Shown here: one piece after another, positions 1 to 17,032 of the stretch
How positions within the stretch are numbered: the stretch's first letter is position 1
Layout: each line of letters starts with the position of its first letter
Assembly (NCBI GenBank): GCA_027449865.1
Contig: DAIDKV010000148.1
Span: 1-64,000 of the forward strand
Direction: 5' to 3'
Length of the DNA stretch: 64,000 nt
From: Planctomycetales bacterium
Lineage (GTDB): Bacteria; Planctomycetota; Planctomycetia; Isosphaerales; Isosphaeraceae
Position numbers and translations under genes: made by a program
Notes under the pieces: model-generated
What the model was told of the DNA's origin: nothing
The model's database searches: none
What the model saw: only the letters and a program-made list of their open reading frames with translations

Positions 1-1653
1 CTAGGAGCCTGTCCGAGAATTTGGCCATGTCTCGGCTCGGTGAGTGAGCTCCCGCTGGGCTTTGGCCGTTTCGGCCTCCGGCCCTCCCTCGGCGCGCACT
101 GTCCCCCTCAACTCTCACCGGCGGCACGGCTGCGTCGCCAGATCTTCAGCAGATTATGCGACAGACAGATCAGTTGCCACTCCGCGGAGACCTTCTCCAG
201 ACCTCGGAGGAGGAACTGGCGGATGCCTCGCGCCGACTTCGTCTGGCCGAACACCGGCTCGACGATCTGCTTCCGCGCCGCGTAGAGGACCTTACCGGTC
301 GCTGTCTGCAGTTTGGCTCGCATCTGCTCCTTCACACTCGCCGACGAGGGGACCGGCGACTCTGAGGGGTCCGGCTCTTCATGGTGCTTCTGGCGCTCGA
401 CCGCCAGGTACGGGTCGATCCCGATCTCCACCAGGCCCGCGACCGCTCCCTCGCTGAAATAGCCGGTGTCCGCCGTGTTCGGGATCGGCACGGCGGACCC
501 GTCGGCCCCCCGGGGCCGCTCGATCCCGGCCGCTTCCAGATTCTCCAGGGCCGCTTGCGCCATCGGCACCGCCTGCTGTTTATCATTGGTCGCCTGGGTC
601 ACTTCGGCCGCGACGATGATCTGGTCCTCGCCATCCACTACTGCTTGAGCGTTGTACGAGTAATCGAACCCCTTGTTGCTCTGCTTCATGATCTTCGCTT
701 CGGGGTCGGTGAAGTTCGTCTGGGCCTTCTCCTCGGGGGACCACTCGATGGGAGCCGGCTCCTTGCCCGGCCGCTTGCGGCCCTCCGCTTCACGCCGGGC
801 CTGGGCTTCGTCGCGGCGGCGCTGTTCCGCTTCCGCACGGGCTCGGGCCTCGGCTTCCAGCCGCGCCTTCGCCGCGCGGATCTTGGCCAAGCGGTCCTCG
901 CGTCGCTTCAATTCGTCGGGCAACTCGTCGCCGCGACGGCCCCCCAACGCTGCGTCCTGCTCGGCGTCGGACCGCTCGGCGTCGCGGAGCAATCGCTCGA
1001 CCTCGGCCTCCAGCCGCGCGATCTCCTTGGCCATGTAGCCGTAACTCATGGCCTTGTGCCGCGAGGCGTTGGCCCGCATCTTCGTCCCGTCGGTGGAGAG
1101 GTTCCCCAGCTTGACCATCCCCAACTCGCCGGCCACCCGCAGAACCTCGAGGAACAAGGGCTTCAGCGCTGTGGTGTGGAGCTTGCGGAAATCGCTGATG
1201 GTGCGGAAGTCGGGGACGTCGTCGCCGACGATGGCGCGAAAGGCCAGATTGCGCTCGCAGGCAGCGGCGATCTTGCGGCTGGAGCAGACACCGACGGCGT
1301 AGGCGTAGACCAGGAGCGTGACCATCATCGTGACGTCGAAGGGGGGTTGGCCGCGGAGGTCGCGGGCGTAATACGCGTGGAAGGGGCCCAGGTCGAGTTG
1401 GGGGATCAGATCGATGAGGAAGAAAACCAGGTCGCCTTCGGGGAGGGCCTCGCGCGGCGCGATCGCGTCGTCGCCGTTGTGCTGGGGGTCCCAGGTCCGG
1501 TAGCTCTTGCGTCGCCCCTCCATGACTCGGCTCTCCGACGTGGCCTCAAGTGGGTCGAAAGCTCGGCGATCCGCATTGTGCCCGAGCCGTGTCCGTCTGA
1601 CTACAACCCTCGTCCGCTCTGACGCGGATCGAGATACTCGGACAGCCTCCTAG
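1..1653 (-). mobile_element. IS1182-like insertion sequence, complete, with ~20 bp terminal inverted repeats
   Basis: Left end CTAGGAGCCTGTCCGAGAAT (1-20) matches the reverse complement of the right end, CTAGGAGGCTGTCCGAGTAT (1634-1653), with 2 mismatches; CTAG at both outer edges; encloses one transposase ORF. Confidence 0.9.
108..1523 (-). CDS. IS1182 family transposase
   Basis: 471 aa; N-terminal DUF772-like region (FHAYYARDLRGQPPFDVTMMVTLLVYAYAVGVCSSRKIAAACERNLAFRAIVGDDVPDFRTISDFR), C-terminal DDE region ending KQIVEPVFGQTKSARGIRQFLLRGLEKVSAEWQLICLSHNLLKIWR. Confidence 0.92.
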   Translation of the reverse strand: MEGRRKSYRTWDPQHNGDDAIAPREALPEGDLVFFLIDLIPQLDLGPFHAYYARDLRGQPPFDVTMMVTLLVYAYAVGVCSSRKIAAACERNLAFRAIVGDDVPDFRTISDFRKLHTTALKPLFLEVLRVAGELGMVKLGNLSTDGTKMRANASRHKAMSYGYMAKEIARLEAEVERLLRDAERSDAEQDAALGGRRGDELPDELKRREDRLAKIRAAKARLEAEARARAEAEQRRRDEAQARREAEGRKRPGKEPAPIEWSPEEKAQTNFTDPEAKIMKQSNKGFDYSYNAQAVVDGEDQIIVAAEVTQATNDKQQAVPMAQAALENLEAAGIERPRGADGSAVPIPNTADTGYFSEGAVAGLVEIGIDPYLAVERQKHHEEPDPSESPVPSSASVKEQMRAKLQTATGKVLYAARKQIVEPVFGQTKSARGIRQFLLRGLEKVSAEWQLICLSHNLLKIWRRSRAAGES

Positions 1654-2321: not shown

Positions 2322-4685
2322 ATGCGATCGTGCCCGTCTTCCGCTACCCTGGCTCGACTCGTGCTCGATCCCAGCGGCGGTGAAACGCCCTCGACGCTGG
2401 AAGATCACATCGCGGGCTGTCCTAACTGCCAGTCGGCGCTCGATCGACTGGTGCAGAATGACGCCGCCGATCCCGAGGGCCTGGATATTCCGCCGCAGGA
2501 CAGCTGGCCGAGGCTCCCCGGGTTTGTCATCGAGCGGGAGCTGGGCCGGGGGAGCGCGGGTGTCGTCTATCTGGCGAGTCAGCCGAACCTCGACCGATGG
2601 GTGGCGCTCAAGGTCGTCCGAAGCGGGACAGCGGCCGGCTCTCGCGAGCATGCCCGGTGGCTCCGCGAGGCCCGGTCGTTCTCAAAACTTCGGCATGAAA
2701 ATGTGGTCCGACTCCATGAGATCGGTGAGGCCGAGGGCTGGCTCTACCTCGTCCTGGAATACATCCCAGGCGGGACGCTCTCCGATCGGCTGAAGGTCCC
2801 GTATGCGCCGATCGAGGCGGCCCGACTGATGGCACCGATCGCCGAGGCGGTGGACGCGATTCATCGCGAGGGCCTTTTGCACCGCGACCTCAAGCCGTCG
2901 AACATCCTGATGGATGCGTTCCCGGACGCCCCCCGAGAGCAGGCCACGCCGAAGGTCGGCGACTTCGGCCTGGCCTTCGCCTGGCAGGATGAACCTACTG
3001 TTTCAGGGACGGTCGGTACCGGCGTGCCGGTCGGTTCGCCCGGCTACATGGCGCCCGAGCAGGTCAACAACCGACGCGACCGGCTCAGCCCGGCGACCGA
3101 CGTTCACGGGCTGGGGGCCCTTCTTTACCACGCGATCACCGGCCGCCCACCGTTCGCGGCGCCCTCGGTCGCCGAGTCGCTCGACCAGATCCGCCATCGG
3201 GATCCGGTCCCGCCCCGCCGCCTCAACCCGGGCATCCCCCGCGATCTGGAAACTATCTGCCTGAAGTGCCTCCGAAAGGACCCGACGCGCCGATACGAAA
3301 CCGCGGGGGTCCTCGCCGACGACCTCCGACGATTCGTCAATGGCCTCCCGATCGCGGCCCGGCCCATCTCGCGACTGGAGAAGGCTGCACGTTGTTGCCG
3401 CCGATATCCCACGGTCGCCGCGCTGGCGATGGCGCTGATTGTGGCGATCTGGGGCGGGTTCGTTGGGATGTTCGTGCTCTGGCTTCACGCCGAAGCCCAG
3501 CGTGGCCGGGCCGAGGCCTATCTCGCCCGCGCGGCCGAACTGCTCGGTGAGCTGATCGACCTGAATGCCGGCGGGGCGGGCGGGCAGCCCAGGTACATCG
3601 ACCCAAATCGAAAGATCCTCCTTCTGCGAGGGGCCCGCCGGCACCTCGTCGGACTGGCCGAACAGCTTCCCGATCGCCGATCATATTACACGCAGTTGAT
3701 GGCCGTCGATCAGGGGCTATCCGACGTCCTCGACTACGAGTCGCGTCGAGATGAGCGGCGCGACCTGCTTCTCATCAGTCTCCGCGATGCCGAGGAGGCC
3801 CGCCGTCGATTCCCCCGCGACGGGTTCGCGCGAGACTGGCAGTTCTGGGCCATCTACCAACTCACCGAGGTCGCCGATGGGGACGGGAACGTCGGGGTTG
3901 TCGAATCCCTGATTGGGAGGACTATCGAGCTCGCGAAGGAGGCCTACACCTCCGTGCCCGGCCCCGCACAGCTTACGTGCCTCATCGATGGACGTCTGAG
4001 ACGCGCGGATTACCTCGCCGCGGCCGGGCGGATCGACGAGGTCCGGGGGTTGTTGCAGGATAATCGCCGGACTCTCGCCGAGGTGCCACGGGACCGAGTC
4101 GATCTGACGGTTATCCTGCTCCGGACCGCCTCGCCGATCTACGAGCGCCAGTTCGGGATCCAGCTGCCGCCCTGGCCCGGCCCCACCGGCGGCCTCGGCT
4201 CTACCGAGGCCGACCGCCTACCGCCCGAAGCCTGGGCCGAGGCGGCGGCGCGGTCCCTCGGCCTCGACGCCCCCGATGGACCGACAGCCTCCGCTCCCTC
4301 CATGACTACCCTGAAATTCGCCGAATCGCTCCAGAGGGTCGCGACCATCCAGCGACGACGGAAGCAACTCGCCCGTGCTCGACAGAGCGCCAATCGCCTG
4401 ATGGCGCTGGCCGAGAGGATGCTGAGGAGGCGGCCCCACGATCCCTTCACCTACCTCCTGCTCGCCGCCGCCCACGAGCAGGCGAATAAGAACGCCTGGC
4501 AGGAATACGACGACCCAGCGATCGACCCGGCCCGCAAGCCGGCGGTCTGGGCCAACATCGTGCAGACGATGCGCGATTGCGCGCGGGCCGATCGCACCGC
4601 CATGGAACTGGACCCGGACAACTTTGACGCCCGCAAGCAGTTCCAGCTTCACCAGCGGAAGCTGGAAAAGCTCTTGCATCCATAA
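2322..4685 (+). CDS. Serine/threonine protein kinase with N-terminal HxxxCxxC (anti-sigma-like) zinc finger and one TM segment
   Basis: DHIAGCPNCQSAL; Gly loop GRGSAGVVYLA, VALKVV, HRDLKPSNILM, GDFGLAF; TM VAALAMALIVAIWGGFVGMFVLWL. Confidence 0.92.
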   Translation: MRSCPSSATLARLVLDPSGGETPSTLEDHIAGCPNCQSALDRLVQNDAADPEGLDIPPQDSWPRLPGFVIERELGRGSAGVVYLASQPNLDRWVALKVVRSGTAAGSREHARWLREARSFSKLRHENVVRLHEIGEAEGWLYLVLEYIPGGTLSDRLKVPYAPIEAARLMAPIAEAVDAIHREGLLHRDLKPSNILMDAFPDAPREQATPKVGDFGLAFAWQDEPTVSGTVGTGVPVGSPGYMAPEQVNNRRDRLSPATDVHGLGALLYHAITGRPPFAAPSVAESLDQIRHRDPVPPRRLNPGIPRDLETICLKCLRKDPTRRYETAGVLADDLRRFVNGLPIAARPISRLEKAARCCRRYPTVAALAMALIVAIWGGFVGMFVLWLHAEAQRGRAEAYLARAAELLGELIDLNAGGAGGQPRYIDPNRKILLLRGARRHLVGLAEQLPDRRSYYTQLMAVDQGLSDVLDYESRRDERRDLLLISLRDAEEARRRFPRDGFARDWQFWAIYQLTEVADGDGNVGVVESLIGRTIELAKEAYTSVPGPAQLTCLIDGRLRRADYLAAAGRIDEVRGLLQDNRRTLAEVPRDRVDLTVILLRTASPIYERQFGIQLPPWPGPTGGLGSTEADRLPPEAWAEAAARSLGLDAPDGPTASAPSMTTLKFAESLQRVATIQRRRKQLARARQSANRLMALAERMLRRRPHDPFTYLLLAAAHEQANKNAWQEYDDPAIDPARKPAVWANIVQTMRDCARADRTAMELDPDNFDARKQFQLHQRKLEKLLHP

Positions 4686-9972: not shown

Positions 9973-12678
9973 ATGACGCCGAATCACCTGGAAATGGGTC
10001 CGGGACACGATCCGATATTGTTGAGATCCCATCTGATGCGAAGCGCGATCCTCTGGTCTCTCTGGTTTCTCGCCAGGCTCGTGGTGCCACTCCGCTATTC
10101 CGTTCAGGTCCGTGGGTGGGAGAAGGTCCAAGGATTGCGCGGTCCGGTACTTTTGTTGCCGAACCATCCCGGATACATCGACCCTGTCCTTATCCTGACC
10201 TGTTTCCAGGCCCCTCTACGGCCCAGGCCGGTCCTCTACGAGGACAACTTCCGAAGCCCGATCCTCCGGCCTCTGGTGCGGCTCCTACGCGCTGTACCCA
10301 TTCCCGATCTCGACCGCCCAAGCCTTGAGGCCCAGGAGCGTGTCGGTCGGGCCATCGCGGAGGTGATTGAGGGGCTCCGTCGTGGCGAGAACTTCGTCCT
10401 CTGGCCATCCGGGCGAGTGCAGCGAGACGGTGTCGAACGACTAGGAGCGGCTCGGGCGCTGACCGACATCCTGAAGGCCGTTCCCGAGGTCACAGTCATC
10501 CTGGCGAGAACCCGAGGCGTCTGGGGCAGTTGTTTCTCCTACGCCAACGGGCGAACTCCTCTCCTCGACCATTGCTTCCGGGACGGTCTTTTCTGGCTTG
10601 CAGCGAACCTTCTTGTCTTCATGCCGCGACGTCGGGTTGTCATTCATATCGAACGGCTCGATCGCGCCCGCCTCCCGGCGATGGAACGCGATCCGATCAA
10701 TCGATGGTTCGAGGCCTGGTATAATGTGGATGGCCCGGAACGTCCAACCTACGTTCCGTATCACTTTCTCCTTGGTCCGAGGAGTCGTGTCTTCCCAGTC
10801 GCGAGGGAGCCAGCCGAGGGAGTGATCGATACAAATCGAATTCGCCCGGAGACGCGATCGGCCGTCGCCGAGATCCTGACCGAGGAGTTGGGCCGTCCGA
10901 TCACTGTCGACGAACTCCAGCCCGCGACCCTCCTCGAAACCCTCGGCCTGGACAGTCTTCGACGCATGAATCTGGCGATGGCCATCGAACAAAGATTCGG
11001 CTTCTCGGCGGATGGCGCGCCGGTCACGGTGGGTCAGCTCCTGGCCCTGGCTGAAGGTTTGGCCGAGAAGCCGCCACCACCGCCACCGCCACCAATTTGG
11101 TTCCGGCCGCCCTCGGCTGAAAGTCTGCCCGGGATACCGGGAGGAACCATTCCCGAAGCGTTCGTCGCCCGCGTTCTGACCGACCGCCGAGCAGTGGCGG
11201 CCGCTGATGATCTCTCAGGCGTAGTCACCTATGAGCGGCTCCTCACAGGTGCCAAGCTGATGGCCCGCCGATTCGCTCGATTGCCCTCGGCAAACGTTGG
11301 TCTAATGCTTCCCGCATCGGTGGCCTGCGAGACGATGTTCCTCGGCCTCTCCCTCGCTGGAAAGCTTCCCGTTCTTCTCAACTGGACTACGGGACCCGCC
11401 AACCTCTCGCATGCGGCGCGGCTGACGGGCCTGACCCACGTGATCACATCATGGCGGCTTCGCGACCGCCTGGGCCTCGCGATCGAGGGCGTACAGTTTC
11501 TCGACGTTGAGGACCTCCACCAGCAAGTCGGCCGGCTCGAGCAAATCCTTATGATGCTGCGAGTACGCATAAGCCCGAGCCGAATTCGCCGCTGGGTACC
11601 GCTGATCAACCCAGATACGACGGCTGCAATCCTGTTCACATCCGGTTCGGAGAAGGCACCCAAGGCTGTTCCCCTCACGCACCGGAACATCCTCGCCAAC
11701 CAGGAGGGTGCTCTGTCCGCCATTGCGCCAACGCCTCAGGATTCGGTTCTCTCCTTTCTACCGATGTTTCATAGCTTCGGGTTCACCGTGACCGGTATGC
11801 TCCCCATACTCGCCGGTATCCGTGTCGTCCACCATCTCGACCCCACCGATGCCGCCGGTCTGGCCCGAAGAATCGGTGTCTATCGGCCCACTCTCGTCGC
11901 CGGTACACCGACCTTTATCGACCACATTTTCCGGAGTGCTCGTCCAGGAGAACTCGACTCCTTGCGACTGATCTTCGTCGGGGCGGAGAAGTGTCCTCCT
12001 TCCCTGTTTGATCAGGCCCAGCGCCTGGTACCGGGGGCCGACCTGGTCGAGGGCTACGGTGTCACGGAATGCTCGCCGATTATCACGGCAAACCGTCCCG
12101 GGGCCAACCGTCCCGGTAGCATCGGACAGCCATTGCCCGGGGTCGAGATCCGCGTGACCGACCTGGAGACCGGCGAGGTTCTCCCTTCCGGACGGATGGG
12201 CATGCTGCAGGTCAGCGGTGCCTCGGTCTTCCCGGGCTACCTCGGCGACGAGCCCTCACCCTTCCTGGAACAAGAGGGAAAACGATGGTACATCACCGGT
12301 GATCTGGCCGAGTTCGATTCGGAGGGATTTCTTCACTTCCGGGGTCGGCTGAAGCGGTTCCTCAAGGCTGGCGGAGAGATGATTTCGCTCCCGGCGCTCG
12401 AGGAACCTTTCATGATCCTGTATCCAGCCGACGAGAATGGTCCGAAGGTGGCTGTCGAGGGTCTGGAGACCGAAAGTGGCCGCCATGTCGTCCTGTTCAC
12501 AACCGAATCCATCTCTCTCTCCGAGGCCAACGCACGACTGCACGAGGCAGGGTTCCGAGGCGTGATGCGGCTCGACGAGGTCCGCCGCCTGGATACAATT
12601 CCGTTGCTGGGTACCGGAAAGGTTGATTACCGTCGCCTTCGTGAGATGGTCGAGGTACCGGCGCGAGTCTTCGCCTAG
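9973..12678 (+). CDS. Fusion: PlsC-type acyltransferase, acyl carrier protein domain, AMP-forming acyl-ACP/CoA synthetase
   Basis: NHPGYIDPVL (NHxxxxD), ACP motif LGLDSLRRMNLAMAIEQRFG, polyproline linker PPPPPPPP, AMP-binding ILFTSGSEKAPKAVPLTHRN and EGYGVTECSPII. Confidence 0.9.
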   Translation: MTPNHLEMGPGHDPILLRSHLMRSAILWSLWFLARLVVPLRYSVQVRGWEKVQGLRGPVLLLPNHPGYIDPVLILTCFQAPLRPRPVLYEDNFRSPILRPLVRLLRAVPIPDLDRPSLEAQERVGRAIAEVIEGLRRGENFVLWPSGRVQRDGVERLGAARALTDILKAVPEVTVILARTRGVWGSCFSYANGRTPLLDHCFRDGLFWLAANLLVFMPRRRVVIHIERLDRARLPAMERDPINRWFEAWYNVDGPERPTYVPYHFLLGPRSRVFPVAREPAEGVIDTNRIRPETRSAVAEILTEELGRPITVDELQPATLLETLGLDSLRRMNLAMAIEQRFGFSADGAPVTVGQLLALAEGLAEKPPPPPPPPIWFRPPSAESLPGIPGGTIPEAFVARVLTDRRAVAAADDLSGVVTYERLLTGAKLMARRFARLPSANVGLMLPASVACETMFLGLSLAGKLPVLLNWTTGPANLSHAARLTGLTHVITSWRLRDRLGLAIEGVQFLDVEDLHQQVGRLEQILMMLRVRISPSRIRRWVPLINPDTTAAILFTSGSEKAPKAVPLTHRNILANQEGALSAIAPTPQDSVLSFLPMFHSFGFTVTGMLPILAGIRVVHHLDPTDAAGLARRIGVYRPTLVAGTPTFIDHIFRSARPGELDSLRLIFVGAEKCPPSLFDQAQRLVPGADLVEGYGVTECSPIITANRPGANRPGSIGQPLPGVEIRVTDLETGEVLPSGRMGMLQVSGASVFPGYLGDEPSPFLEQEGKRWYITGDLAEFDSEGFLHFRGRLKRFLKAGGEMISLPALEEPFMILYPADENGPKVAVEGLETESGRHVVLFTTESISLSEANARLHEAGFRGVMRLDEVRRLDTIPLLGTGKVDYRRLREMVEVPARVFA

Positions 12679-12994: not shown

Positions 12995-15292
12995 ATGACC
13001 TTACGCCGCCCCATGACGGTCTCGCCGCTCTGGCTTCAGGGATCGATCCTCACCTTCATCATCGGTTTCACGATTCTGGCCTTCTCGGCCGTACGGATCT
13101 ATCAGGATCCCGCCCCGGTGCCCGAAAAGATCGTCGACGAGACAGGGAAGGTCCTCTTCACGCGACAGGAAATCCTTGACGGTCAGGAGCTATTCCTGAC
13201 GTACGGCCTGATGCAGTTTGGCACGATCTACGGCCACGGCGCCTATCTCGGACCCGACTTTACCGCCGACTACCTGCACCGCGAGGCCGAATCGATGATT
13301 CGGAGGTACGGTGGGACCGAGGGCGCTCGCGGCCGTGTCCGGCGCGAGCTTCAGGAGAACCGCTACGATCCCGCGACCGGAACTCTGATCTGGACCCAAG
13401 GCCAGGCCGAGGCATTCGAGGAGATCCACCGTCATTTTGGCGAGATGGTCTACGGCCGCAAGGTTAGCGGTGAGGGGCTCAAGCCCGCAATGATCGCGGA
13501 CGACGCCGAGACGCGGGCCATCACGGGCTTCATCGCATGGACAGCCTGGACGGCCGTCGCGCGTCGTCCTGGACGTGCCTACTCGTACACCAATAATTGG
13601 CCTCCAGAGGAACTCGTCGGCAACTCGCTGACCGGCGATGCCATCATGTGGAGCGCACTCTCGCTGGTGGCGCTCCTGGGGGGCATCGGCATCGTGCTGG
13701 GCCTCTACGGTCGTTTCTCGGGGGCTGTCGGTTGGCACGAGACGGAGGAGCGACGAGTCCGATTCGTTTCGCCGGCTTCGGTTCCCCTGACACCGGCTCA
13801 GCGGGTGACGGCCTGGTTCTTCCTGGTCGCGGCGGTCCTTTTTCTGCTCCAGAACCTGATCGGTGGAGCAACAGTCCATTACATGGTCGAGGCGGGAGGC
13901 TTTTTCGGAATCGACCTGCCGCGGTGGCTCCCCTACAACCTCACCCGGACCTGGCATCTCCAGATGGCGATCTTCTTCGTGGCGACGGTTTATCTCGCCG
14001 CGGGGATCTTCCTGGCGCCTCTGATTGCCGGGCGCGAACCGAAGGGGCAATGGGTGCTCGCCTCGACACTCCTCGGGGCGCTCGCCGTGGTGGTTTTCGG
14101 GAGTTTGGGGGGCGAATACCTCAGCTATCACGGAATGCTGCCCCGCGGCCAGAGAGCCTTCCTGGGCGCCCAGGGTTGGGAATACCTCGATCTCGGCCGG
14201 CTCTGGATGTACCTGCTGATCGTTGGCATGGTGCTCTGGCTGGCGATCATCTACCGGGGATTGCGGCCCCGCCTGGCGACCGAGAGCCGGGGCAATCTCC
14301 CCTGGCTCTTCATGTACAGCGCGCTTTCCATTCCGGCTTTCTACGCCGTCGGGCTGCTGACACATACTCAGAGCACCTTCGCCATCGGTGACTTCTGGCG
14401 GTTCTGGGTCGTCCACCTCTGGGTCGAGGACTTCCTCGAACTCTTCACCACGATGCTCGTGGCCCTGATCTTCGTTCTCATGGGGATCGTCTCGGAGCGG
14501 TTCGCAACCCGGCTGATCTACTTCGACGTGATGCTCTACTCGGTCGGCGGCGTGGTGGGCACGCTGCACCACTGCTACTTCAGTGGCGGCCCCGCTGTGG
14601 AGATGGCGCTCGGGGCGTTCTTCTCGGCCGCCGAGGTCATCCCGCTGACCTTGCTCACGGTGGAAGCCTGGTCATTCCTCCAGCTCGGCAATCGTCAGCA
14701 GCCCGGAGATGTCGATTCGTTCCCACACCGATGGGCCGTGCTCTTCCTGGCCTCGGTCGGGTTCTGGAACTTCCTGGGCGCCGGGGTCTTCGGTTTCCTG
14801 ATCAACCTGCCGGTCGTCAGCTATTTTGAGATCGGCACACTCCTGACCTCCAATCACGGCCATGCCGCGTTCATGGGCGTATATGGAATGCTCGCCCTGG
14901 CGCTCACAGTTTTTTGTATCCGATACCTGGCACGCCCCGAGGACTGGAGCGAGGGCCTGGTCCGATTCTCCTTCTGGGCGACAAACCTCGGGTTGGTCTT
15001 GATGATTCTCGGGCATCTGTTCCCGCTGGGCGTCCTGCAACTCGGCGACGTGGTGACCAACGGATACTGGCATGCCCGGTCGGAATGGTTCCGAAATTAT
15101 CCCTGGCTTTCGTGGGCTCGGATGCCGGGCGATCTCGTCTTCATGGCCGGGTCGGCACCGATGGCCTGGCTGGCGCTCAAGGTGGCCCTGAGGACCCGAA
15201 GGACCATCGAACCGACGGCTCCCTCGGAATCCAACCTGGCGGCGACACTCTACACCGAGGTCACGCCCACCGGCGCAACCAGCGGGGCGTGA
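12995..15292 (+). CDS. norZ: Quinol-dependent nitric oxide reductase (qNor, NorZ-type large subunit)
   Basis: 765 aa heme-copper oxidase-type protein; YGLMQFGTIYGHGAYLGPDFTADYLH N-terminal domain; H-rich TM helices (RTWHLQMAIFF, VVHLWVEDFLELFTT, GTLHHCYFSG, SNHGHAAFMGVYG). Confidence 0.93.
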   Translation: MTLRRPMTVSPLWLQGSILTFIIGFTILAFSAVRIYQDPAPVPEKIVDETGKVLFTRQEILDGQELFLTYGLMQFGTIYGHGAYLGPDFTADYLHREAESMIRRYGGTEGARGRVRRELQENRYDPATGTLIWTQGQAEAFEEIHRHFGEMVYGRKVSGEGLKPAMIADDAETRAITGFIAWTAWTAVARRPGRAYSYTNNWPPEELVGNSLTGDAIMWSALSLVALLGGIGIVLGLYGRFSGAVGWHETEERRVRFVSPASVPLTPAQRVTAWFFLVAAVLFLLQNLIGGATVHYMVEAGGFFGIDLPRWLPYNLTRTWHLQMAIFFVATVYLAAGIFLAPLIAGREPKGQWVLASTLLGALAVVVFGSLGGEYLSYHGMLPRGQRAFLGAQGWEYLDLGRLWMYLLIVGMVLWLAIIYRGLRPRLATESRGNLPWLFMYSALSIPAFYAVGLLTHTQSTFAIGDFWRFWVVHLWVEDFLELFTTMLVALIFVLMGIVSERFATRLIYFDVMLYSVGGVVGTLHHCYFSGGPAVEMALGAFFSAAEVIPLTLLTVEAWSFLQLGNRQQPGDVDSFPHRWAVLFLASVGFWNFLGAGVFGFLINLPVVSYFEIGTLLTSNHGHAAFMGVYGMLALALTVFCIRYLARPEDWSEGLVRFSFWATNLGLVLMILGHLFPLGVLQLGDVVTNGYWHARSEWFRNYPWLSWARMPGDLVFMAGSAPMAWLALKVALRTRRTIEPTAPSESNLAATLYTEVTPTGATSGA

Positions 15293-15331
15293 CGCGGAGG
15301 CCCACCATCCTTCCCCTTGGAGGTCGCTCCG

Positions 15332-15940
15332 ATGCCTGCGATATTGACCCCCTGGGGAGGGACAGTCGACCTGATTCAGGTACTACTCCTGGCGTACCTC
15401 GTGTGTCTCTGGGTGGGCGGATGGATTCTGGAGGCACTGGCCCGGGCTCATTTTCACCGCGCTCGGCGCTTCGCCCATGGCGGCTTCACCTACGACGAGG
15501 GACTTGACCGATACGAATGTCCCCAGGGCGAACTTCTGACCCTCGACACTTACGATGACCGGAACAAACTGGCGATCTACCAGGCGCCGGCGGCCTCGTG
15601 TAACGCCTGCGTGCTGAAAACGTTCTGCACCCCGCACGATGAGGGCCGACGCGTTTATCACTCGCTGGCGGAGTTCCACGAGACCGACCTGGGCCGGTTC
15701 CATCGAGGGCTCTCGCTGACCATCCTCGTCATCGCGGTGGGCTTCTCAGCCGGTGGCCTCATTGCCTGGTGGAACCGCCCGGGTGAGTGGCTCTTCCTGA
15801 TCGCCTCGGGCATGAGCCTGATGATGCTCTGGCTCGACCTGCGCGACTCACCGGCCAGGGCCGACTCGGCCCTTTCAACGGCTCACGAGAGGCAAAGCTG
15901 GTGGATGTCGGAGGACAGGGGGACGACAGGGCGGCGTTAA
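15332..15940 (+). CDS. Membrane protein with a transposase-type four-Cys zinc-ribbon between TM helices
   Basis: TM1 VDLIQVLLLAYLVCLWVGGWILEAL; FTYDEGLDRYECPQGELLTLDTYDDRNKLAIYQAPAASCNACVLKTFCTPHDEGRRV; TM2/TM3 LSLTILVIAVGFSAGGLIAWW and EWLFLIASGMSLMMLWLDL; SD GGAGG before ATG 15332. Confidence 0.75.
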   Translation: MPAILTPWGGTVDLIQVLLLAYLVCLWVGGWILEALARAHFHRARRFAHGGFTYDEGLDRYECPQGELLTLDTYDDRNKLAIYQAPAASCNACVLKTFCTPHDEGRRVYHSLAEFHETDLGRFHRGLSLTILVIAVGFSAGGLIAWWNRPGEWLFLIASGMSLMMLWLDLRDSPARADSALSTAHERQSWWMSEDRGTTGRR

Positions 15941-16530
15941 TCCTGAGGCGTCAGGGATGACGCCACCATCGCCTCGCGGCTTGTCCTGAGAAACAGAAGC
16001 CATTCCTCCAACCCCGCGCTGGTCCTGGCCGACGTCTCGAAAATGGTCATGCCGGGCCGCACGGAGAGAAGATTTCGACGAGCTTCCTCCCGGTCGAACT
16101 CACAGGCGTCCGCCAGGTCCATCTTCGTGATCACGGCGAGATCGGCCGTGTGGAAAAGCTTCGGATACTTCAGCGGCTTATCCTCACCCTCGGTGGTTGA
16201 AAGGAGGACGACACGGATGGACTCGCCGAGATCGTAACTCGCGGTGCAGACCAGATTGCCCACGTTCTCGATAAAGAGGATGTCAGATCGACCGGGCGAC
16301 CATTCCTCCAGATGGCGGGAGACCATGGTAGCGTCCAGATGGCAAAGGCCGTCGGTGTTGATCTGTCGAACCGGAACCCCGCTTGCGGCCAATCGCCTGG
16401 CGTCGTGATCGGTGGCCAGGTCGCCCACCAGGGCGGCCACGGCAAGCCCCTGAAGTCGCAACTCCAAAAGGGTCCGCTGGAGGAGAGTCGTCTTACCCGC
16501 GCCGGGGCTGGAGACGAGGTTGATAGTCAA
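15937..16530 (-). CDS. hypB: Hydrogenase nickel incorporation protein HypB (GTPase); true N-terminus extends upstream
   Basis: NLVSSPGAGKTTLLQRTL, GDLATDHDARRLAASGVPVRQINT, ENVGNLVCTASYDLGES, ITKMDLAD. Frame upstream reads RILEVRKNILHRNDEQARVLRARFQAEGTL, also HypB-like. Confidence 0.93.
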   Translation of the reverse strand: MTINLVSSPGAGKTTLLQRTLLELRLQGLAVAALVGDLATDHDARRLAASGVPVRQINTDGLCHLDATMVSRHLEEWSPGRSDILFIENVGNLVCTASYDLGESIRVVLLSTTEGEDKPLKYPKLFHTADLAVITKMDLADACEFDREEARRNLLSVRPGMTIFETSARTSAGLEEWLLFLRTSREAMVASSLTPQD

Positions 16531-16606: not shown

Positions 16607-17032
16607 TCAAGGATGCGAGGTTCCAGGTGCGGGCCTCCGCTCGTCCGTTGTGGCCGTTGGGTGGTCGCTGAGGTGTATCGAGGTCAGCTCCAGTTCTTGC
16701 CCCTGCCGAATATCCAGGCTCGGCCGACCGCATCGTGGACAGCAGAGCGCTCGGAAGTCCGGCAAGACGGCCTCGGACCGACACGATTCACAAAAGACGA
16801 CGACCGGCAATTCCTCTATCACGAGCCGAGAGCCAGCCAAAAGCGTCTCGGATGTCACGACATCGTAACAGAAGAGGAGAGATTCCTTATCAACTCCCGC
16901 GAGTAGCCCCAATCGCAGGTGAACCTCGGTCACGTCTCGCTGAGCGATCTCTTCCGGAGCTTCCCTTGCTCGATCCTGGATCGACTCGATAGCCGTGGTC
17001 AACAGACTCTCGGCAATGGAGAGCTCGTGCAA
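16607..17032 (-). CDS. hypA: Hydrogenase nickel incorporation protein HypA
   Basis: MHELSIAESLL N-terminus; zinc-binding CESCRSEAVLPDFRALCCPRCGRP. Confidence 0.92.
   Translation of the reverse strand: MHELSIAESLLTTAIESIQDRAREAPEEIAQRDVTEVHLRLGLLAGVDKESLLFCYDVVTSETLLAGSRLVIEELPVVVFCESCRSEAVLPDFRALCCPRCGRPSLDIRQGQELELTSIHLSDHPTATTDERRPAPGTSHP

Follow-up and report, generated by a model that had tools for sequence, protein, structure and literature searches.

What is a cysteine-rich module of the transposase type doing in a small membrane protein encoded directly behind a nitric oxide reductase? The question is raised by a stretch of 64,000 nucleotides (the window) from a Planctomycetales bacterium of the family Isosphaeraceae, in which the gene for a quinol-dependent NO reductase (qNor/NorZ, 765 aa; positions 12995-15292, plus strand) is followed on the same strand by the gene for a 202-aa protein (positions 15332-15940), hereafter the partner.

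Organization of the partner gene and its product

The partner ORF starts with ATG at 15332, is coding to 15937 and ends with TAA at 15938-15940. A GGAGG sequence at 15319-15323, read directly from the DNA, is its likely ribosome-binding site. The spacing from the qNor stop codon (15290-15292) was measured as 39 nt, and replaces the 32 bp given in the first-pass annotation, whose layout of one transmembrane (TM) helix, a Cys region and two further helices was borne out by a real 202-aa ORF with the predicted helices in place. TM1 (residues about 13-36; 15368-15439) leads into residues 37-48, which are rich in Arg and His, and into a loop of about 70 residues that bears the Cys module (residues about 44-116; 15461-15679); then come a hairpin of TM2 (about 120-145) and TM3 (about 152-171) that begins with RFHRGLS (residues about 120-172; 15689-15847), and a polar tail. 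The four cysteines of the module, C63, C90, C93 and C99, are encoded at 15518, 15599, 15608 and 15626, respectively; a further cysteine in TM1, C25, is variable among the homologues. At the 3' end, the stop codons of the partner gene and a convergent hypB-like gene (15937-16530, minus strand) overlap within a TTAA palindrome (15937-15940), and a hypA-like gene (16607-17032, minus strand) lies beyond. Conservation of this neighbour does not extend to the other genomes.

The partner modelled alone folded poorly (pLDDT 52), and this model was set aside. A fused model (31 rows) was then used, with qNor and partner joined in one frame through one TGA and 13 codons, the TGA being read as Trp as a folding device only; it gave a mean pLDDT of 75.9 and a pTM of 0.72. 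In this model the partner forms helices at residues 14-44, 119-145 and 152-171, and the module is predicted to fold into four or five short strands and two small helices (pLDDT about 73-87). The Lys/Arg residues number 0 in the N-terminal tail, 5 after TM1, 2 before TM2 and 1 in the TM2-TM3 loop. Since positive charges follow TM1 and precede TM2 and are missing from the N-terminal tail, a cytoplasmic loop is favoured, and we infer an N-out topology with the Cys module on the cytoplasmic side.

The neighbouring qNor

The window qNor (PF22085, E 3e-50; COX1, E 1e-46) is a full qNor, with the NorB cytochrome-c-like domain, the COX1 fold and the residues of the quinol and FeB sites all present. 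The quinol-site residues are retained as VHYMVE at 294 and RMPGD at 709 and the active-site residues as VVHLWVEDFLE at 472 and LHH at 524, in agreement with the known qNORs of Geobacillus (3AYF), Alcaligenes (8BGW) and Neisseria (6L3H), and the model of the protein superimposes on solved qNOR structures with a target TM-score of 0.89-0.90. In the literature, qNORs form dimers and take up protons from the cytoplasmic side (PMC6713497; PMC10256718), and the solved ones are described as single-subunit enzymes (PMC6713497), in contrast to the window qNor with its conserved downstream membrane partner.

Several side observations concern qNor genes. The genome of the window carries a second qNor (G000:C144:2963-5173, minus strand), which belongs to a higher-scoring PF22085 group and is 41% identical to the window qNor. 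A gene for a fused acyltransferase/acyl-carrier/AMP-ligase is found upstream of qNor both in the window (9973-12678) and at L022:1822-4515, the latter on a G001 contig that ends inside qNor. Six qNor-like proteins of Planctomycetota (L045, L046, L051, L052, L055 and L059) carry HMWAECFFEVF and SHN instead of HLWVEGFFEVF and HH, so that one expected His ligand of FeB seems to be replaced by Asn.

Genetic linkage of the partner to one qNor clade

PF22085 qNors were detected in 25 of the 45 Isosphaeraceae genomes examined, and are split by PF22085 score into two groups of about 170 and about 240 bits. The partner was found in 8 of the 45 genomes, several of these eight being metagenome-assembled, and every one of the eight starts 32-93 nt after a qNor of the 170-bit group on the same strand, while the remaining genes of the neighbourhood differ from locus to locus. 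Conversely, all eight complete qNors of this clade are followed by a partner; this tally sets aside shorter fragments in G001, G002 and G003, and two more qNors of the group (L021 and L022) are cut off by the end of the contig, upstream of where a partner would lie. The window clade is distinct from the canonical planctomycete qNors (clade support 100). Another 29 qNors of Planctomycetota (37-42% identical) were inspected, and behind no member of this set does a gene for a 3-TM protein follow on the same strand; one of them (L068) is followed by a gene for a 6-TM protein. Three plasmid qNors from alphaproteobacteria, members of the sister lineage, were inspected together with five other plasmid-borne ones, and none of these has an annotated partner-type gene directly behind it. 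In Methylocystis rosea, a SirB2-family gene (L092:3832-4230) lies directly 3' of qNor and adjoins nnrS, possibly as another small membrane partner.

Among the matches listed from 394 Planctomycetota genomes, no full-length partner homologue was detected outside the family; these matches cover the Cys module and lie in transposase-like ORFs, two of which were identified by family scan. A tblastn search of plasmids with the partner gave no match. The survey of gene neighbourhoods thus came out in favour of the tie to qNor proposed in the first-pass annotation: instead of being scattered mostly outside qNor contexts, the homologues adjoin qNor in 8 of 8 cases. The linkage between partner and qNor is real and strict.

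Relationship of the Cys4 module to IS1182 transposases

The NCBIfam model of IS1182 transposases (NF033551) matched the partner with an E-value of 1.4e-10, residues 44-112 corresponding to model positions 350-417. The Pfam model DDE_Tnp_1_6 (PF13751) covered the same region over its positions 2-52. Neither of its E-values, 0.003 with the entire protein as query and 4e-4 with just the module, reaches the curated cut-off. When the modules of partners and transposases were aligned, twelve columns were invariant, including all four cysteines, and F, Y, P, G, L and GR were also common to both. The shared pattern, F-x-Y-D...D-x-Y-x-C-P-x-G-x-x-L...Y...C-x2-C-x5-C-T...G-R, occupies PF13751 positions 1-57 and NF033551 positions 350-417 in IS1182 transposases. 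What had been noticed as a familiar Cys pattern is, by these profile and alignment data, homologous to the Cys-containing insert of IS1182-type transposases. No relatives of the module were found by sequence in the PDB.

Family profile searches detected neither the N-terminal DUF772 domain nor the DDE catalytic core in the partner, in line with the initial reading that the catalytic domain is absent. Judged from these profiles the partner is not a transposase: unlike IS1182 transposases, it retains only the segment matching NF033551 350-417 and PF13751 2-52, placed between the TM helices of a 202-aa protein. An IS1182-family transposase gene is present in the window itself (108-1523, minus strand), and its product matches NF033551 at 13-350 and 418-487 and PF13751 only at 58-125. 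The partner therefore carries, within a membrane protein, exactly the piece that is missing from this transposase. As had been proposed from its lack of the Cys domain, this coverage rejects the local copy as donor of the module. In two transposases from other parts of the phylum, the match to the models extends across the entire region, module included; with a local copy that is devoid of it, the Cys module must be optional within the IS family. A profile of the module searched against the 45 Isosphaeraceae genomes detected the eight partners and two other places, one encoding an intact transposase-like protein of 545 aa (L087) and the other a broken one (L088). Taken together, the homology suggests that the respiratory machinery has co-opted a piece of a mobile gene.

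Conservation of the module

Similarity to a transposase, in genomes where IS remnants are common, could also mean that the partner is a remnant of a transposase undergoing decay, or an ORF that arose by chance. The eight partners, however, share 63-68% overall identity and align without gaps through residue 174, their location 3' of qNor is constant, and the pN/pS ratio is well below 1, so that both forms of this explanation are refuted and its probability is close to nil. The mean identity among the eight is 81% in the module, compared with 65% and 68% in the membrane-spanning parts. The pN/pS ratios, which are rough because they are uncorrected Nei-Gojobori proportions at high pS, are 0.17 for the module, 0.40 for TM1 and 0.35 for TM2-TM3. 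With the highest identity and the lowest pN/pS of all parts of the partner, the module is held hardest by selection, indicating that purifying selection acts on it.

A module-free protein behind a Streptomyces qNor

The closest plasmid-borne qNor, 52.7% identical over its full length, is encoded on a Streptomyces plasmid. In a quick tree of qNors, which carries a long-branch warning, the Isosphaeraceae form a clade (SH-aLRT 100) with Streptomyces as sister (99) and alphaproteobacteria next (98). On the plasmid NZ_CP108071.1 of Streptomyces sp. NBC_00271, the qNor stop codon is overlapped by 4 nt by a gene for a 129-aa hypothetical protein (WP_328760300.1) with three TM segments, the first of which is separated by a short loop from the other two, which form a hairpin. 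In common with the Isosphaeraceae partner, this protein has its place behind the sister qNor, three hydrophobic segments, the motif AYLVxL in TM1 and the motif RFHxxxS, with which the hairpin opens (RFHHSVS, against RFHRGLS in the window partner). Unlike that partner it is devoid of the Cys module, and its homology over the whole sequence is statistically insecure: BLASTP between the two groups was non-significant (E 0.004 for one pair, over a dubious segment), as was hhalign (probability 2.6%). The profile scores of TM1 and TM2-TM3 reached about the 1.6% and 2.9% levels against membrane-segment nulls, for segments that were picked after inspection. The placement of the Streptomyces protein on TM-II of qNor by MAFFT was rejected as homology, an alignment artefact being likelier. 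On two other Streptomyces plasmids (L077 and L078, around 3917-4313), a decayed qNor C-terminus is followed by a broken partner of the same kind, looking as if the pair had been deleted on both.

Common descent of the partners in Streptomyces and in Isosphaeraceae is likely but unproven from these sequences. If it holds, it suggests that the module was either inserted into an existing 3-TM partner of qNor or lost in Streptomyces. The module thus probably sits in the TM1-TM2 loop of a 3-TM partner which exists in module-free form in Streptomyces.

Metal type and possible function

The cysteines of the module are spaced as C63-x26-C90-x2-C93-x5-C99. Of the name "zinc ribbon" used in the first-pass annotation, the homology to the transposase type stands, while the classical ribbon of two CxxC pairs does not, the module having a lone Cys followed by CxxC plus C. 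The name "Cys4 module" should therefore be preferred until the metal is measured. Four-Cys domains with 4Fe-4S clusters of the Cas4/AddB type also have one distant Cys and then C-x2-C-x5-C, matching the spacing in the partner. The partner differs from them in being devoid of a RecB nuclease domain and in giving no family match, and the likeness is probably a convergence of motifs. The same four-Cys arrangement is able to hold either a cluster or zinc (PMC3466216).

With regard to function, we give about an even chance to the reading that qNor and partner make up a two-gene unit in which the partner is an accessory subunit and its module serves assembly or stability. A small membrane subunit would be made and inherited together with one clade of qNor; its N-out 3-TM scaffold would have gained the IS1182-type Cys4 module in the TM1-TM2 loop in the Isosphaeraceae lineage, so that the module would have passed from transposase to partner; the cytoplasmic module would hold a structural metal, more likely zinc than iron-sulfur; and, as a protein-contact domain, it would touch qNor and help it to assemble or to stay stable on the cytoplasmic face. 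Such a role fits best with a co-inherited 3-TM protein bearing the proposed rigid, metal-holding cytoplasmic domain. Counting against it, the solved qNORs are described as single-subunit enzymes (PMC6713497), implying that a partner is not generally needed.

The position next to an NO-consuming enzyme, four invariant cysteines under the strongest constraint in the partner and a C-xn-C-x2-C-x5-C spacing shared with the iron-sulfur domains of Cas4/AddB are what one would expect of a subunit sensing NO or redox state, in which a reaction of NO with a zinc thiolate or 4Fe-4S site would adjust qNor activity or relay a signal to a partner in the cytoplasm. Transposases, however, keep the same four cysteines equally invariant without any known role connected with NO, so that metal-dependent folding explains their conservation and this conservation is not itself evidence for NO chemistry. 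Moreover, no conserved regulator gene lies near the partner loci, and no consistent FNR/NNR-like site was found in the 330 nt upstream of ten qNors, nine having no such box and the tenth one match with two mismatches. We regard sensing as unlikely, and its fullest form, in which a transposase-derived, membrane-anchored and NO-reactive Cys4 site, possibly 4Fe-4S, is the built-in sensor or regulatory subunit of a two-subunit qNor, as improbable.

The strict tie of the partner to one qNor clade, together with four invariant histidines close to membrane and module (His40, His49, His102 and His124), would also agree with a factor for FeB or iron insertion or maturation in this clade, the module handing over iron or docking a maturation protein. 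NorQ and NorD, described as essential for FeB insertion in cNOR (PMC9976466), offer a precedent. Nevertheless, most qNors manage without a partner-type neighbour, and the module is derived from transposases and not from metal chaperones; a NorQ/NorD-like role, which together with sensing is a main alternative to the accessory subunit, is accordingly doubtful. The transposase origin could finally mean that the module still binds nucleic acid, the partner being a membrane-anchored DNA-binding protein that merely shares an operon with qNor. We consider this very improbable, for residues 61-118 are not markedly basic (5 Lys/Arg against 9 Asp/Glu), and no tie to a regulon beyond qNor was observed.

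Biological significance

If the accessory-subunit reading is true, a qNor clade in which a second membrane protein looks obligatory would represent a new architecture for an N2O-making enzyme. The module of the partner would, in addition, be a clean case of bacterial exaptation, in which a sub-domain of an IS transposase has moved into a respiratory gene unit, and for which near-matching forms without the module, the Streptomyces partner on one side and the local transposase on the other, are at hand for comparison.
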